The notes beneath the pieces are model-generated. The model saw nothing but the letters and a program-made list of their open reading frames with translations. It did no database searches and had not been told where the DNA came from. Positions 3,095 to 49,881 of a stretch of 64,000 bases of DNA are shown piece by piece; position 1 is the stretch's first letter; each line of letters begins with the position of its first letter. The position numbers were made by a program, and so were the translations under genes. The stretch is from Fuerstiella sp. (GTDB lineage Bacteria > Planctomycetota > Planctomycetia > Planctomycetales > Planctomycetaceae): contig JAQWLN010000244.1 in the NCBI GenBank assembly GCA_029247265.1, positions 1 through 64,000 of the forward strand. Reading direction: 5' to 3'.

Positions 3095-5095
3095 CTAACG
3101 GAGAAGCATGCCGGCGTAACCGACGACTCGACTTTTATCACCGGAAACGTCGGCACTGGTCGCGTAACCGGCGCGTTGAATTTCTGACAATTGCCCCATC
3201 GCCCGTAGCGCTTCCATAACGATAACGGCAGGCCGAAGACCACACATGCTGATATTCTTCTCTGAGACAGTGTTAAACAGTTCTGACGGATCGAGCGATT
3301 CCATTGCGACCAGGGCGATCTCGTCCAGTTTCCGATTTTCGTCGTCGGTGGCAAAGTGATTCATATCGCTGGAAATGATCAGCAGCGGCGCCGACGGCAG
3401 CTCGGCGATAACCGCCGCCAGTTGGTGACCGAACAGCTGGCAGCGTTCCAGACTGGCGCTACCAATCGCGACGCCGACAACCTTTGTGTCGGGTGCCAGA
3501 CGCGAAAGAAAAGGCAGCTCGACTTCGATGCAGTGTTCCTGACTATGAGCAGCCGAGTCCAGATCCAAACCGTCGATGCGTGCCGCCAGCCTCTGCGCGA
3601 GATCACGGTCAGCCGACACCGTTGCGCCCGGCAGCTGCCACGTCGCATGCGGCGCAATGGCCCAGTCGACGCCGTTCCGAGTATGCTTCGGCCTGATGAT
3701 GATCACCGTGTCGGGCAGCTCAATTCTCTTCAATACGTCAGCGGCGATCCGTCCGGAAAACTGTAACCCGGCATGCGGTATCATGACTGCCGGCCAGGTC
3801 TCTTTCTTCGCAGGAATCTCGCCAAGGCAGTCCGACACGATCTTTGCCAGCGTCTCCCGATCCGCCGGATAAAATCGCCCCGCCACACCGGCAGGCCGAA
3901 CATCAGTTCCGGGTTGAGCCACAGGTACGTTGCTGTTGTCGATGGCCCCCGTGGTGGACCTTACGGCAAAGCTGAACACCTGTGCGGCCGCCGGCGTGCC
4001 GACCCTGGCCGCGGCAGCAACCAGATCCTCAGCCACTGCATCCTTCTGGAACCGCCACGCTGTGCGTCCGGATTCAGCAACCATCACCGCTCTGATCTTC
4101 GGATCAATGCCGCCAGCGTCGCATACCTCAACAGTTCCGTGCATTGCCGAATCGGCAAACAACACGACATCCACGACCATTCGACCGGTCAGTTGAGCGT
4201 CAACCCGCGACGTCCGCAACCAGTTGGCCGCCGCACCAGTCAGCTGCAACAGGGTTGTCTGCAGCGGAAATCCGTGGCGAATCTGAATCCGCGAAAACGT
4301 TGCCTGCAGGTCCGTGCCGGGAAACAATAATCGAATAGCAATTCCGTCAACTGTGCCATCGGAACAATTCGCCGGAAAACATCCCGGTACGGCGCCCTGA
4401 TAGGCCGCGACGATGTTCGTTTTCGCGAAATCCGCCAGGGTAGCCACATCACTCTGGCTAAACGGATGTTGAAGGTCGGCGGCGTTATCATCCAAGACCG
4501 ATGCGTCGAACTCACGCTCAATTAATCGACCTTCAAAACGCGTCAATTCCGTATCCGGCTGCTGCCATGCCGTAACCGGCAGTCCGGCTTTGTGGCACAC
4601 TTGATCCAAAAATGTACGAGAATCCCAGTTGCGTTCGACTGCCACAATCGGCAGCAGCAATCCAGCCCTGTCGCCGCGTGCGATTCTGAGTCCATGTTTC
4701 CCGATTTCAACGGCGTCAGCACGCCGCTCACCGATCTGAGTTACCGGTTCAAAGTTAAACAGCAGCGTAACGTCCAGTGTCAGGTAGGGCAGCTCAGACG
4801 CCGACACCGGCGGAAACCGATGATCCTCCGTCGCTGTCCGGATACTCGACTGCGTCAACGCCGCCAGCAAATTCATCGGCTGCCCCAGACTGCCACAACA
4901 GCCTCGCAATTGCCCCTGCCGTTTCAGTGTCACGAACGTGCCCATGACGGTTTCGTCCGCCGCGTTCAACAACGTGGGATCGGACAGACACGTTCTTCGT
5001 TTATTCACGGCGGCGAGCACGATTTCGCTCGCAGCCTTATGTATTGCGGACTCCTGCTCCGTTGTCAGTGCTGGACTTTCCCGAACTGTCTGCAT
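3095..5095 (-). CDS. AmmeMemoRadiSam protein: AMMECR1-Memo fusion
   Basis: A single chain joining the A and B components of the AmmeMemoRadiSam system. Numbered from the ATG at 5146, residues 30-210 are an AMMECR1 domain with RGCCGS at 81-86 (usually LRGCIGS). Residues about 210-415 are a linker or degenerate domain I do not recognise. Residues 417-683 are a Memo domain with AGRFYPA at the start, MIPHAG at 455-460, EHCIEVELPFL at 537-547, SSDMNHF at 592-598 and CG at 635-636. The usual PNHTG loop reads RPKHTRNG. Memo is a dioxygenase-fold metal protein. The ATG at 5095 (MQTVRESP) is preferred because it limits overlap with the radical SAM gene to about 31 bp. The molecular reaction of the system is unknown. 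Confidence 0.87.
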   Translation of the reverse strand: MQTVRESPALTTEQESAIHKAASEIVLAAVNKRRTCLSDPTLLNAADETVMGTFVTLKRQGQLRGCCGSLGQPMNLLAALTQSSIRTATEDHRFPPVSASELPYLTLDVTLLFNFEPVTQIGERRADAVEIGKHGLRIARGDRAGLLLPIVAVERNWDSRTFLDQVCHKAGLPVTAWQQPDTELTRFEGRLIEREFDASVLDDNAADLQHPFSQSDVATLADFAKTNIVAAYQGAVPGCFPANCSDGTVDGIAIRLLFPGTDLQATFSRIQIRHGFPLQTTLLQLTGAAANWLRTSRVDAQLTGRMVVDVVLFADSAMHGTVEVCDAGGIDPKIRAVMVAESGRTAWRFQKDAVAEDLVAAAARVGTPAAAQVFSFAVRSTTGAIDNSNVPVAQPGTDVRPAGVAGRFYPADRETLAKIVSDCLGEIPAKKETWPAVMIPHAGLQFSGRIAADVLKRIELPDTVIIIRPKHTRNGVDWAIAPHATWQLPGATVSADRDLAQRLAARIDGLDLDSAAHSQEHCIEVELPFLSRLAPDTKVVGVAIGSASLERCQLFGHQLAAVIAELPSAPLLIISSDMNHFATDDENRKLDEIALVAMESLDPSELFNTVSEKNISMCGLRPAVIVMEALRAMGQLSEIQRAGYATSADVSGDKSRVVGYAGMLLR

Positions 5096-6330
5096 CGTTT
5101 CATTCGCTTTAGAATTGAGGCTTCGGCTGTCGTTCGAGGTTCGCACGGGGGGCCTGAAACTGTTCCCAATTGTACCAGACCACCAGGATCTGCAACGGGA
5201 TGATTTGCCACAGAGGCATGTTCGCCAATGCGAACTGGCTCACGCTTTCGGCCCCATGTGCCTGGCGATTGATCAAAGCGTCCCGCGATGTCAGTACCGC
5301 AGGCACCGCAGCGACGTCCCATCATTTTGTAGCGGCCCAGCTCATGCCAATTACGTTCTATCAGCAGTTCACCACACTTCGGACACCAGGTGCTCTGATT
5401 CTGTACATCGTTGACGTTGCCCACATAGACGTAACGAAGTCCCTGTTCGCCGGCAATCTGCTTTGCTGTCAACAGCGTCTCGTGCGGAGTGCGTCCTCGA
5501 TCCAGCATCCGAAAATCCGGATGAAACGCCGTAAAATGAACCGGAACGTCAGCTCCAACACAATCAAGAATCCAATCGCACATCTGACGCAGTTCATCTT
5601 CCGAATCGTTGGCATCCGGGATGATTAAGTTGGTAATCTCGAACCAGACGTCGCTTTCATGCTTCAGCCACTTCAACGTGTCCAGAACCGGTTCCAGGTG
5701 CGAATAGGTGATGCGCTGATAAAAGTCCTCCGAAAATGATTTCAGGTCGACGTTGGCAGCATCCATCGCATGAAAGAACGCCGGCCGGGCAGCTGGCGTA
5801 ATGTAATCCGCCGTGACAGCCACTGATTTTATGCCGCGCTCACGACAGACCTTCGCTGTGTCAATCGTATACTCGGCCCAGATAATCGCATCGTTGTACG
5901 TATACGCGACACTGCGGCACCCGTTCTTCTGCGCAGCGGCGGCAATCATGTCCGGCAGCGCCAGTTCGCTCAGCCGCTCAACCTCCCGCGATTTGGAAAT
6001 ATCCCAGTTCTGACAGAACTTGCAGCCCAGATTGCAACCGGCTGTTCCGAACGACAGCACTGCCGTGCCTGGATAGAAGTGATTGAGCGGCTTCTTTTCG
6101 ATGGGATCAATGCAGAAACCAGTGCTCTTTCCGTACGTCGTCAACTGCATCTGCCCATCGACGTTCTGCCGCACAAAACAGAAGCCTCGGTCACCGGGCT
6201 TCATTGAACATTCACGAGGGCAAAGATCACAGATGATACGGCCATCCTGCTCCGCCGAATGCCACCAGCCGCCGGCAACATTGCCGGCGCTGCCGGGCGT
6301 TGCAGGCGGAGGTAGAGAAACAAATGTCAT
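5065..6330 (-). CDS. amrS: AmmeMemoRadiSam system radical SAM enzyme
   Basis: Radical SAM protein of the AmmeMemoRadiSam trio. The [4Fe-4S] motif is CNLGCKFC (Cys99, 103, 106), preceded by a second Cys group, CDLCPREC around residue 34. The family core TYGKSTGFCIDPIEKKPLNHF is recognisable, with CPKCGE and CGACGTDIAG zinc-ribbon-like pairs near the C-terminus. Homologues as I know them end soon after the GRKREPVRI segment (about residue 368). Here the frame runs on for about 53 residues of low family character and overlaps the start of the AMMECR1-Memo gene. The two genes are clearly one operon. Confidence in the family is high, in the exact C-terminus moderate. Confidence 0.88.
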   Translation of the reverse strand: MTFVSLPPPATPGSAGNVAGGWWHSAEQDGRIICDLCPRECSMKPGDRGFCFVRQNVDGQMQLTTYGKSTGFCIDPIEKKPLNHFYPGTAVLSFGTAGCNLGCKFCQNWDISKSREVERLSELALPDMIAAAAQKNGCRSVAYTYNDAIIWAEYTIDTAKVCRERGIKSVAVTADYITPAARPAFFHAMDAANVDLKSFSEDFYQRITYSHLEPVLDTLKWLKHESDVWFEITNLIIPDANDSEDELRQMCDWILDCVGADVPVHFTAFHPDFRMLDRGRTPHETLLTAKQIAGEQGLRYVYVGNVNDVQNQSTWCPKCGELLIERNWHELGRYKMMGRRCGACGTDIAGRFDQSPGTWGRKREPVRIGEHASVANHPVADPGGLVQLGTVSGPPCEPRTTAEASILKRMKRCRQFGKVQH

Positions 6331-6691
6331 CGTTTCAAGGTGATGCGAGTTCAGCGACGTATGCCCTAAATGTGGCTCCGTGCGGTATCATGCCGGATTT
6401 AGTGGTCGAGGAACAGCAAACATCGACAACTCGCAGTAGGAAGTGTTGCTGCCAGCCGGCCAACGAACGGTGGATGTCGCGGATTATCAATACGCTGCAT
6501 CGTAGTCCAGGAAATGCATGAAGGTCGCCACGTTGAATTCGTGCGCCCATGACCTGTTTGACGAAAGCACCCGGTGAGCCTCATTTTTTCGTAGAGTTGA
6601 TATGCAGCGCCGGATTCGATGCAATGCTCAACCAGCGGCTCCGGCCGGTTGCAAAACTGACTCACCAGGAACGTCATCGGGAAGATATTGA
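6331..6691. other. Intergenic gap, possible gene remnant
   Basis: A 361-bp gap between divergent genes. On the minus strand a short frame ending at 6487 reads as protein-like (NVATFMHFLDYDAAY at its C-terminus), but only about 45 codons are open before a TGA, and two other frames are open over parts of it. It may be the decayed end of a gene or chance. A GGAAG ribosome binding site for the amidohydrolase lies at the right edge. Confidence 0.3.
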
Positions 6692-29769: not shown

Positions 29770-32314
29770 GTGCTCGCCAGAAACCCTGAAACAGACTGCG
29801 GCACCAGAATCGGTCAGGACAATGCCTGCGGCCCGGCACATGCTGGAACACTGAAACGAAGCTCTTCTCTCGCTACGGCATTTGCCCGGCCAGGACTGCC
29901 CCTCAGTGCATGGACGGCAACAGCTCTGGTCGGCGGAATTGCCCTTGGGTCGGTCGTACCACCTGCCCCATTGTACTTCCTTGCGGCGGCTCCGATATGC
30001 CTCGGCGCTGCCAACCTTCTCAGACGACGACGCCTCCGCTGGGGTTGTGTGTTCTGCGTGCTGGCGGCGATTGTCGTTCTCGGAGCGACGCGGTGGCAGC
30101 TGTATCAGACTCCGTCTGCGCGAACATCCCTGAAGAACATTTGCGGTGACGGCCCCGCGATTCTGACGCTGACCGGGCACATCGCATCTGTTCCCTGTCT
30201 TCATGTTCGCCCTTCATCAAAGATTGCGCCACGACTTTTCGGATCTGCGGAACAGTCGCGGTTCCTGGTGTCGGCGCTGTCCGTGATGAGTCCTGTTGGT
30301 CAGCGTCACGCTGAAGGCAGCTACCAGGTCTACGTGGATGGCGACGCAACAGGAACACTTCACATTGGTGACAAGGTAACTCTCACCGGCCGCTGGGACT
30401 GGCCGGATACACCTGGCAATCCCGGAGAATTCAATTTTGAACAATTCCTGAACAGACGCCGGGGTTCCGGCCTGCTCTTTGTGAATCACCCTGCCGCCAT
30501 TCGTGTGGTCGAATCGTGCAGCCAATGGTCGCCAGGCTATTGGGTCAGCGAACTGCGCCGGGAAACACGATCGGTCCTGGTCACATCCCTACCGGAACAC
30601 GTCCCTACCGGAACACGTCCAGGGAATGGCGATCGCCCTGTTACTGGGTAATCGCAATCAGCTGCCGTCCGAAACAGCGGATGCATTCGTTGCCAGCGGC
30701 ACAATGCATCTACTGGCGATCTCCGGATTGCACGTTGGAATCCTGTGTGCATTTCTGCTCAGCATCTGTCATCTCCTGATCATTCGCCGCAATCAGGCGT
30801 TGCTGCTGACTGCAGCGGTGTGCATCGTTTATGCCATGATCACCGACCTGCGCCCGTCGGTGCTTCGTGCCACCGTATTCTTTGTGATCGCTCAATTCAC
30901 GCGCCGCAATCAAAGTGTCGCCGGCCTGCTGTCCGCGACGGTTATCATCATGGTCATCGCTCAGCCGCACCTGGTATTCGATACGGGAGCCTGGCTGTCA
31001 TTTCTATCCGTTGCAGCTCTTGGCTGGGTGTCCAGGCGTGCCGTCAGGGACAGCCAGCCTCAGGACGTGCCGGCAGACGCTGTGAACATTCGTGCAAGGC
31101 TACGCGACATGCTCAGCAACGTGTGGACGCGGCTGGCCCTTCGCTGGCGCCAGATGCTGTCGATACTGGGGCTCACGACCCCCCTGGTGGCTGCGACGTT
31201 TCATGTCATTTCGCCCGCCGGTGTGCTGGTCAACGTGCTGTTAATCCCGTTGACCGGATTAACACTCTGCGTCGGCTTCGTGCTTCTGGCTGCCAGCATG
31301 TTCCACCCGGCCCTTGCCCAGATCGTGGGGTTTTGCTTCTCATCACTGCTCGCCACGATCACCCGGATTGTCGAAGTGACATCCAGCCTGAATCTGAGTC
31401 ACGCTTATCTCGCAGACATACCGAGCTGATTCCTGGTCGTTTACTACGTGCTGGTCCCCGCAATTCTTCTGATACGCTGGCGACCGTTGAAACGAATCGC
31501 TGTTCTGTGCCTGTACGGTGCGATCCTGGCAGCATTCAGGACTGCGACTCAACCAGTCCCGCCCTGCGACTTACGTTGTACAGTGCTGGACGTAGGCCAC
31601 GGCAGTGCGGCCGTTCTGGAGTTTCCCAGTGGCGAGGTCATTCTGGTTGATGGCGGTTCAATGAATCGAGGCGAACGTGCGGGAGACGTCATCTGCCGTT
31701 TTCTGTGGAGTCGAGGCTACCGTCGTCTTAACGCTGTCTTCATCTCCCACGCCGACGCTGATCACTACAATGCCGTGCCCACCGTGCTAAACCGAATACC
31801 GGTGTCGGAGATCCTCACATCGCGAGAATTCGTAAACTCAGATTCGGCATCAGTCCAGTCAGTGATTCAACTGGCGGACGCCGCAGGCACGCCAGTGCGC
31901 ATACTGAGCAGCGGTGACTGGGCGCAAATGGGTAGATCCCTCGTGCGGTGTCTTCAGCGTGATCTTCAGAAGCTCCCGATCGATGCCGACGACAACGAGA
32001 AATCACTGATTGTCATCGCCGAGCATGCCGGACGACGCATCGTTCTGCCTGGAGATCTGGAAGGAAGAGGGAGCCAGAACGTATTCCATAGTGTAGGCCC
32101 GGCTGATGTTCTGGTCAGTCCCCATCATGGGTCACCGACTGCCAACACCCCCGAACTCGCGGCACAACTGAGCCCGGACAGCCTAATTCTGAGTGCTCGA
32201 CGGCCAGCGAACGCCGACAGACTTCGAAAGGTGTTCGGCAATGCGGTGATTTATCACACCAGTGAAATTGGCGCCGTTTCCGTGTCGATCGCTCCCAACG
32301 GCCACCTGTCTTAA
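29770..32314 (+). pseudogene. comEC: comEC/rec2 DNA-uptake channel gene, broken by two lesions
   Basis: ComEC carries single-stranded DNA across the inner membrane in competence. All parts are present but in three open segments: 29770-30651 (N-terminal membrane/DUF4131 part), 30503-31429 (competence domain with MHLLAISGLHVGIL) and 31448-32314 (metallo-beta-lactamase part with LDVGHGSA, VDGGS and SHADADHYNA). Lesion 1: a 16-bp unit (TCCCTACCGGAACACG) is present twice at 30586-30617, shifting the frame by one. With one copy removed, SLPEH continues directly into VQGMAIALLLGNR. Lesion 2: an in-frame TGA at 31427, between ADIPS and FLVVYY, where a TGG Trp codon would fit. The GTG at 29770 is the likely original start. 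Confidence 0.88.
30586..30617 (+). repeat. 16-bp tandem duplication inside comEC
   Basis: Two exact adjacent copies of TCCCTACCGGAACACG. Removing one copy restores the ComEC frame. The second copy is followed by TCC, so the slippage boundary is ambiguous by three bases. Confidence 0.95.
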
Positions 32315-32335
32315 ATCCCGTTTCGGGATCTTTAG
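32315..32335 (+). terminator. Short hairpin after comEC
   Basis: A 6-bp stem ATCCCG/CGGGAT with a TTT loop begins at the base after the comEC stop codon and is followed by CTTTAG. Weak T-tract. Confidence 0.4.
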
Positions 32336-42159: not shown

Positions 42160-42567
42160 GTGCAGCGACAGTCAGTTTTGATTTCAGGGATCGGGTGGGC
42201 ACTGATCGTCAGTGCGGGCTGTGGTGCGAACGACGGACCGACTCGACTGCCACTGTCACGTGTGGTGTCATTGGTAGACATTGCTGAGAATCTGCAGGGA
42301 ACTGTTTCGCTGATGCCAGAGGGCGACACCAGGGGCCCCGCGGCGAACGGTATTATCCAAGATGGATCGTACCAATTTACAGCAGAAGACGGACCGGTCA
42401 CGGGAGAGCATCGTGTGTTGATCGACGTTGAACCACCTCAAGGAAAAATGGACGATGCAGCACAGCAGTCTCAGCTGCAGTGGAAATTCGAATTTCACAT
42501 CACCGTACCGTCGGAGCCTCCTTATGAGCGTGACTTTCCTCTGGTTCGGGACGTCGAAAACGAGTAG
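42160..42567 (+). CDS. Small lipoprotein paired with DUF1559 gene
   Basis: A 135-residue predicted lipoprotein: hydrophobic signal and lipobox ALIVSAGC, then a beta-rich body ([33 protein letters not shown]). It resembles the lipoprotein at 33461 in layout: a small beta-sandwich-like domain with a GxxxL...P pattern and a DUF1559 neighbour. The GTG at 42160 is chosen because GGGGAG lies seven bases upstream; an upstream GTG at 42124 and ATG at 42145 lack such a site. It precedes, rather than follows, its DUF1559 gene. Confidence 0.68.
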
Positions 42568-42586
42568 TTCTTGCGGAGACCGCGTT

Positions 42587-43497
42587 TTGCTTACAGCCTG
42601 CGGCAACCGCGCGCGTCACCGTAGTTTCACTTTGATCGAACTGCTGGTGGTAATCGCCGTCATCGGAATTCTGGTTTCACTGCTTCTGCCGGCCGTTCAG
42701 CAGGCACGATCCGCCGCCAGGCGAACACAGTGCAAAAACAATCTGAAACAGATCGGACTGGCGTTTCACAACTATCACGACGTGCACAATGTCTTGCCTA
42801 TGGGCAGCAGCCACCATTCTCCCGCCGATGGTGCGTGGGGCATGATGGCTCACGTCCTGCCGTACCTTGAACTGGGCAGCACGTACCAGCTGATCGATTT
42901 TGAAAGCAGCGGTTGTTGCACGGCCGTCAAACTTCTGCAGAATGCCACGCCCCCGAAGCCTGCCCCATCATCGAATCCGATCAACGTTTTCTACTGTTCG
43001 GACGATTTCAACTCAAACAACCGACTGTTGAGCGGCCCACCGGTCCCCATCCCAACTCATACGATTGTGGCCTGCTGTTTCCGGGCGACTACATGGGAGT
43101 GAGCGGCGATGCAGAAGGCAACCCAAGCTGTTCAGGGACCGTCAACGGAAATGGAACGTTTTACTCTCTGAGTAAGTCTCGATTCCGCGATTTCACTGAC
43201 GGAATGTCGCAAACCATGATTATCGGCGAACGCGGAATTCCGAGCGATTACGGGTGGGGCTGGTACCTGTGCGGCGGCACGGAGTGCGAACATTACATCA
43301 GTACGGAACGAGGACTAAGCGCGGGGAAAAATGTGCCTTCCTGGCAGGGGACACTGAGGCGTTTCTGGAGCTGGCACCATGGCGGGGCGCACTTCATTAT
43401 GGGCGATGGTTCCGTTCAATTCTTTAGTTACAACATGGATTTCCACACGTACCAGAATCTGTCCACACGCGGCGGTGGCGAAGTTGTTTCCTTTTAG
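42587..43497 (+). pseudogene. DUF1559 pseudopilin-like gene with frameshift
   Basis: The first frame (to 43102) has [15 protein letters not shown] and [18 protein letters not shown], then FHNYHDVHN, and fades after [10 protein letters not shown]. The rest, from about [16 protein letters not shown] to GGGEVVSF at 43497, is in another frame and includes RDFTDGMSQTMIIGERG and WHHGGAHFIMGDGS. The switch lies between about 43037 and 43065, where a one-base deletion in the GGTCCCCATCCC stretch would explain it. A TTG at 42587 with GGAG upstream is a plausible start; an ATG at 42524 is the alternative. Either a real frameshift mutation or a homopolymer sequencing error. Confidence 0.7.
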
Positions 43498-48272: not shown

Positions 48273-49752
48273 CTAATCTGCCGCCACACATCGATTCACG
48301 GACCAGTCTCGCAATGCTTCAATCTTCTCTGACATCAGCAATGCAAAAGGACGCGTTTCCGCGATCGCTTTCAGAATGTCCTCGGTCTGCAGTTCACGGT
48401 TCGCGGCATATGCGTGGAACAAACCGGATTTGATCGCCTGCTCGATCTCTGAACCGGTCAGATCCTTTGACGCATCCGCAAGTTCCTCCACACGAAACTG
48501 CTGTGGATCGCGGCCTTTTCTCTTCAGGTGAATCGAAAACACCTTCCGACGTGCATCGCCCCCGGGCAAATCGATAAAGAAAACTTCATCAAAGCGTCCT
48601 TTTCGCATCAGTTCCGGCGGCAATGCCGAAATATCATTTGCCGTCGCAACCATGAAGATAGGTTCCCGGTGGTCCTGCATCCAGGACAGCAGCGTCCCAA
48701 ACATTCGCTGAGCAAGCCCACCGTCGGCGGATGCACTGGATGCAGACGCGAAGGCCTTTTCAATTTCATCGATCCATAGGACGACGGGCGCCATGGCTTC
48801 CGCCTGTTGAATCGCCTGACGCAACTGGTTTTCGCTTTCGCCGACGAACTTCTGGTACAGAACCCCCGGATCGAGACGCAGCAGCGGCATGCCCCAGTCA
48901 GCCCCAACGGCCTTGGCAAACAGACTTTTGCCGCACCCCGGCACACCAAGCATTAACACGCCACGGGGAGGATCGATGCCGAATTCGCGAGCCTTATTCG
49001 TGAAGCCACCGCGACGATCAGCCAGCCACCTCTTCAGTCCTCGCAATCCCCCAACTTCGCTGATGTCGAAATCGATCGTCATCGATTCCAGTGACCCGGA
49101 TCCTTCGAGCAGTCGGCGTTTGGCGTCGATAACTCGCTGCAGGTCGTTACCGCTCAGCAGGTGATCTTCAAGAATGACTGACTCCACGATCCGGATGGCT
49201 TCGCTGCGAGTCAGACCTCTGAGATTCAGTACAAATGCCTCGAATTCCGTGGTCCGCAATTCCGAGACAACGGGTGCAGTCGCCTCACGTTTGATTCTGC
49301 GGTAGGTGTCTTTGACAAGGCTCCTTATCCGGCAGCCCCGGACGCCAGGGCACCGCCAGTCGTTGTATGCGGGGATGCAGCGAATCTTCATCCATTAACA
49401 ACAAACACTCGCGTGAACCGTCCGCCTGCTGGACGTAATCCTTGATCAAACGCCGCACGACCGGTTGACTGGTGAACGGAGCAAGACCTCGAAAACACGC
49501 CAGTGCCGGACGTTTTTGACGCAACAGGTACTGCAGCGCGAGTTCCGGTTTGTCTGTCCCCGCAACAGCAGCAGCCTTCGGAAAGTCCGGTGAATAGACC
49601 TGCACACCCGTCATAACTGTCCAGTCGTGCACGTTCCGTTCGGTGTTTTTTCCTACATCCAGAACCGCCTGAAATTCAACGGGCTCATCGGTACTGTGCA
49701 GACTGATGAGTTTGTTTCGTTAAAGAACAAGGTTTCGCAGTCCGTCCTGCAT
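48273..49752 (-). pseudogene. Ycf46-like AAA+ ATPase gene with nonsense codon and frameshift
   Basis: The C-terminal frame (to 48273) is an intact AAA+ module: GVLMLGVPGCGKSLFAK (Walker A), VVLWIDEIEKAF (Walker B), ELMRKGRFDEVFFIDLP (Arg-finger region), with the Ycf46-style ISEVGGLRGLKRWL before it. The N-terminal part continues in another frame upstream (VHDWTVMTGVQVY, FRGLAPFTSQPVVRRLIKDY). The frames meet near LPDKE / LVKDTYRRIK at about 49315-49322, consistent with one extra C. Further upstream the same N-terminal frame reaches MQDGLRNLVL, a TAA stop, then RNKLISLHSTDE, so the presumed ATG at 49752 is cut off after ten codons. Two independent lesions argue for a real pseudogene. Confidence 0.78.
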
Positions 49753-49881
49753 GCTGGATCGGCCCTTCAGAAAATCATTCGAACGCGTCTGACCACAGGG
49801 TGCCACTGACTTTGTCTGTGTTGCTCTGAGTCCGGTGCACTGGCGAAGCCAGTCGCACACATGCCGACAGACGACTCAACG

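Follow-up and report, generated by a model that had tools for sequence, protein, structure and literature searches.

Core transformation genes can be lost in individual lineages whose relatives keep them intact. The genes pilQ and comM were lost in single lineages of Legionella/Acinetobacter (PMC11472951), and comEC of Streptococcus pneumoniae was disrupted by the mefA resistance cassette (PMC4774983). We analyzed a comEC locus showing the same pattern in a 64,000-nucleotide stretch of Fuerstiella sp. DNA (the window; GCA_029247265.1, contig JAQWLN010000244.1). It differs from those disruptions in that its lesions are small slippage and nonsense lesions with no mobile element, and in that it belongs to an uncultured planctomycete in which the loss is predicted from sequence. 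The locus appears to be an ordinary case of the known lineage-specific loss of transformation genes. A literature search naming both comEC and planctomycetes found no paper devoted to the gene in this group.

Domains and lesions of the comEC locus

ComEC/Rec2 is a DNA-internalization channel. The comEC of the window resembles it in having DUF4131, Competence and metallo-beta-lactamase domains in the expected order and of the expected lengths, and in carrying the motifs SHADADH and PHHG as in its sisters. It differs in having a frameshift, a TGA, a three-residue deletion and an early stop in place of a single uninterrupted reading frame: Pfam places DUF4131 in the first frame and the Competence and metallo-beta-lactamase domains in the second. 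A genome search found comEC as the sole copy (a 162-bit match with one TGA inside). The features of the locus are as follows.

29770..30651, plus strand: first comEC segment, the N-terminal part, with DUF4131 (Pfam E=1.8e-18); from the ORF list and alignment to intact sister proteins
30586..30617, plus strand: 16-bp tandem duplication, two perfect copies, net frameshift
30618..31429, plus strand: second comEC segment, with the Competence transmembrane domain (Pfam E=1.5e-47), stopped by an in-frame TGA
30880..30881, plus strand: junction of a 9-nt in-frame deletion that removes three residues of a transmembrane stretch; from DNA alignment with the sisters
31427..31429, plus strand: in-frame TGA at a conserved Trp
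31430..32314, plus strand: third comEC segment, with the end of the transmembrane domain and a metallo-beta-lactamase-like domain (Pfam Lactamase_B E=1.3e-8), closed by a premature TAA; also from alignment
32312..32335, plus strand: premature TAA at 32312, a remnant tail IPFRDL and a TAG at the ancestral position, 32333; from the 3'-end alignment with sister G001 and the stop list

The unit TCCCTACCGGAACACG occurs twice without a mismatch, at 30586-30601 and 30602-30617, and the repeat extends to 30620. The first-pass annotation had described a 16-bp duplication that shifts the frame at the entry to the competence domain, and TRF, an exact tandem scan, Pfam and the DNA alignment to the sisters, where the extra 16 bases are absent, place it at exactly these positions, just upstream of the Pfam Competence domain. 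Past the duplication the first segment runs out of frame to a stop (TAA, 30649). A genome-wide surplus of tandem duplications was tested and rejected. Perfect frame-breaking tandem duplications with periods of 9-80 bp number 13.4 per Mb here against 10.5 per Mb in sister G002, and the type of duplication is therefore ordinary background; the unusual feature is its presence inside a conserved gene along with further lesions.

The TGA at 31427 had been proposed to stand where Trp fits, in agreement with an alignment column that is Trp in 70/79 planctomycete homologues and with a TGG codon in sister G002. The duplication and the TGA, the two lesions listed at first pass, are both present, and two more had been overlooked, giving four departures in the gene: the 9-nt deletion at 30880/30881 and the TAA at 32312. 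The deletion is flanked by short direct repeats, visible in sister G001, and a gap at this site was found in 0/79 planctomycete homologues. The TAA lies seven codons ahead of the ancestral end, where the window reads IPFRDL followed by TAG and sister G001 reads VTPWRDL followed by a stop. The end of the originally annotated span, 32314, is therefore the premature stop, the ancestral stop being the TAG at 32333.

comEC and other competence genes in relatives

We compared the window comEC with the comEC of 38 related genomes and with 79 planctomycete loci, two sets that partly overlap. The gene is uninterrupted in 7/7 congeners (genus Fuerstiella), in 28/30 more distant relatives with detectable comEC and, over the matched region, in 79/79 named planctomycete homologues. 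The two exceptions among the more distant relatives are G024, whose comEC runs off two contig ends, and G034, and the split into three pieces is found in no other genome. Because all seven congeners keep an uninterrupted comEC, the loss seen here is, on this comparison, particular to this lineage or to this assembly. As expected of a lineage-specific pseudogene, the locus has an intact orthologue in close relatives, no second comEC in the genome and more than one independent disabling lesion, and the single copy with its frameshift and in-frame TGA bears out the inactivation claimed at first pass.

Two other loci were observed in this survey. In G034, a more distant planctomycete of the same class, comEC is split by an insertion of ~52 kb (L036:6824-8838 and L037:7257-7877; G034:C1:2066823-2119876), and at its left junction, just within the insertion, is the start of a large serine recombinase gene, an arrangement also known from mobile elements that integrate into competence genes. 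G013 has a second, frame-broken comEC-like copy (L035:6512-7344; G013:C228:11512-12343) in addition to an intact copy on contig C24; the second copy may come from a contaminant or represent a strain variant.

Elsewhere in the Fuerstiella genome, where the first-pass annotation had suggested looking for comEA, comF and pilus genes, we found dprA, a comF-like gene, comEA-like HHH genes and pilus/secretion ATPase genes, all of them open here and in the congeners. Since these genes are open, the channel rather than the whole competence system appears to have been lost. Their open frames also count against reading comEC as a pseudogene.

Probable recent inactivation and possible assembly error

We consider it fairly probable that the locus is a comEC recently inactivated, and thus pseudogenized, in a Fuerstiella lineage. 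Slippage between short imperfect repeats (CACATCC...CACGTCC) would have produced the 16-bp duplication and disrupted the reading frame where the channel domain begins; the gene would also have acquired a 9-nt deletion by slippage, a stop in place of Trp by substitution and the C-terminal stop, and we assign no order to these events. This reading is favored by the mixed kinds of lesion (duplication, deletion, nonsense), by a 9-nt deletion that hits residues no homologue lacks, and by the clustering of lesions by gene beside clean immediate neighbors. The sequence data show the lesions in the assembly, the intact orthologues, the single copy and the retained constraint; we infer that the cell itself carries the lesions, that they leave ComEC without function and that this Fuerstiella lineage has lost transformation, or DNA uptake.

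Selection on the gene argues against this reading. A three-species codon model gave a dN/dS of 0.19 on the window branch and 0.22 in the sisters (2dlnL 0.44), and each of the three segments (before the duplication, between the lesions and after the TGA) has a value near those of the sisters. Relaxed selection on the window branch was sought with this model and none was seen, no segment being clearly raised; we accordingly set aside elevated dN/dS as a proof of comEC decay. Relaxed selection is a sign of an old loss and is not required of a recent one. In a late-neutral branch model the neutral final share of the window branch is at most ~7% at the 95% level. The branch carries ~0.5 neutral substitutions per site, and 7% of it would accommodate dozens of substitutions over 2.5 kb; several lesions are thus compatible with a recent loss. 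If real, the loss of comEC would be recent, falling within roughly the last 7% of the branch on this model, because all three segments are still under full purifying selection.

The main rival is a consensus or assembly error, or a strain mixture collapsed during metagenome assembly, in which case the real comEC would be whole and at least one of the two hard lesions artefactual. We regard this as less likely, and it draws on the same full constraint on all three segments and on the state of the assembly (280 contigs, 6.53 Mb, 90.5% complete). The only detected copy of rplB carries an in-frame TAG at a conserved Glu (L233:1966-2841; G000:C84:1993-2814, minus strand), and all six congeners with a detected rplB have it intact. 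As a living cell should not carry a stop in an essential ribosomal gene, this TAG most probably reflects an error in the consensus. Single frameshifts also occur in three other genes of the window. An AmmeMemoRadiSam fusion gene (3098-6387, minus strand), which in the sisters joins the radical SAM, A and B proteins in a single ~1,080-codon frame, is frameshifted near 5160 by what aligns as a 1-nt deletion. A prepilin-like gene of the H-X9-DG type (42422-43494, plus strand) lacks 1 nt near 43040 when compared with sister G001, and against the same sister an AAA ATPase gene (48276-49794, minus strand) lacks ~10 nt near 49320; the AAA ATPase orthologue in sister G002 is likewise broken, into several frames. 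The probable error in rplB and the other single lesions weigh against a comEC pseudogene.

Several points speak against an error in comEC: the gene has four departures, one of them a 9-nt deletion with direct repeats on either side and another the perfect 16-bp duplication, a type of lesion that should need reads carrying it and that is not in excess over the sister genome. The distribution of lesions points the same way. We surveyed ~198 genes comparable with sister G002 and ~40 with G001, and an approximate hand tally gave 13 lesions in 8 of the ~198 compared genes, three of which have 2-3 each. The tally leaves out upstream or antisense-frame artefacts found on inspection, such as an event in hisS, and three of its lesions, in the AAA ATPase and prepilin-like genes, are visible against one sister only. 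In a random placement simulation, approximate because its gene lengths were invented and scaled to match the compared total, the chance of three or more genes each carrying two or more lesions was P ~0.007, and that of two or more genes each carrying three or more was P ~4e-5. comEC is among the few genes where lesions cluster beyond the expectation for random error, and its neighbors, nrdR upstream and an OmpA-like gene downstream (named from sequence), have no lesion. The first-pass argument that two types of lesion make an assembly error less likely is strengthened by this clustering by gene and weakened by the rplB TAG and the three window frameshifts.

Two further broken genes were seen in this genome. 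An HDOD-GGDEF gene (L234:11034-12692, minus strand; G000:C78) has three in-frame TAG codons compared with sister G002 and is probably a pseudogene. A cytochrome-like gene (L236:12779-14169, minus strand; G000:C119) has a 13-bp tandem duplication with CAACG flanks, an 11-bp deletion and a stop, lesions of the same slippage kind as in comEC. In our reading, some lesions of this genome are scattered errors and others mark a small number of true pseudogenes, and comEC more probably belongs to this second group.

Other readings and the meaning for DNA uptake

A working three-piece ComEC, recently split, translated piecewise by re-initiation and kept under selection, is in our view very unlikely. 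In its favor, one break coincides with the entry to the Pfam Competence domain and the other is close to its end, an in-frame ATG (MAIALLL) is found shortly before the stop of the first frame, the TGA is followed by a GTG at 31448, and the dN/dS of every piece is as in the sisters. The TGA, however, interrupts the transmembrane domain 18 residues short of the end that Pfam assigns to it, and the 9-nt deletion disturbs a stretch that is ungapped in all homologues. As no other genome has the split, selection on the pieces is indistinguishable from selection before the break.

We give hardly any weight to a phase-variable switch in which slippage of the 16-bp repeat turns ComEC off and on reversibly. 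Two perfect copies with a frame-changing period, together with the retained constraint, would suit such a switch, but the TGA, the 9-nt deletion and the TAA persist at any copy number, there are only two copies, and the sisters have no repeat there. The TGA had already been taken as an argument against phase variation at first pass, and with four departures known the argument is stronger. Reading the TGA as Trp through recoding or a reassigned code, with a tolerated frameshift, has a negligible chance of being right: the TGA does sit at a Trp column, but another in-frame TGA of this genome stands at a Cys codon and the 16-bp frameshift would remain, and stop-codon reassignment was rejected since TAG and TAA replace Tyr, Gln, Arg, Glu and Asn codons, a range that no single reassignment fits.

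The recently inactivated comEC thus remains our preferred reading. If the lesions are not real, the locus is a caution: with a nonsense codon in an essential gene, single 'pseudogenes' of this assembly are not to be trusted. If they are real, the locus would be a roughly dated case of a planctomycete losing its DNA-uptake channel with the rest of the competence set open, and would be useful for asking how fast transformation disappears.
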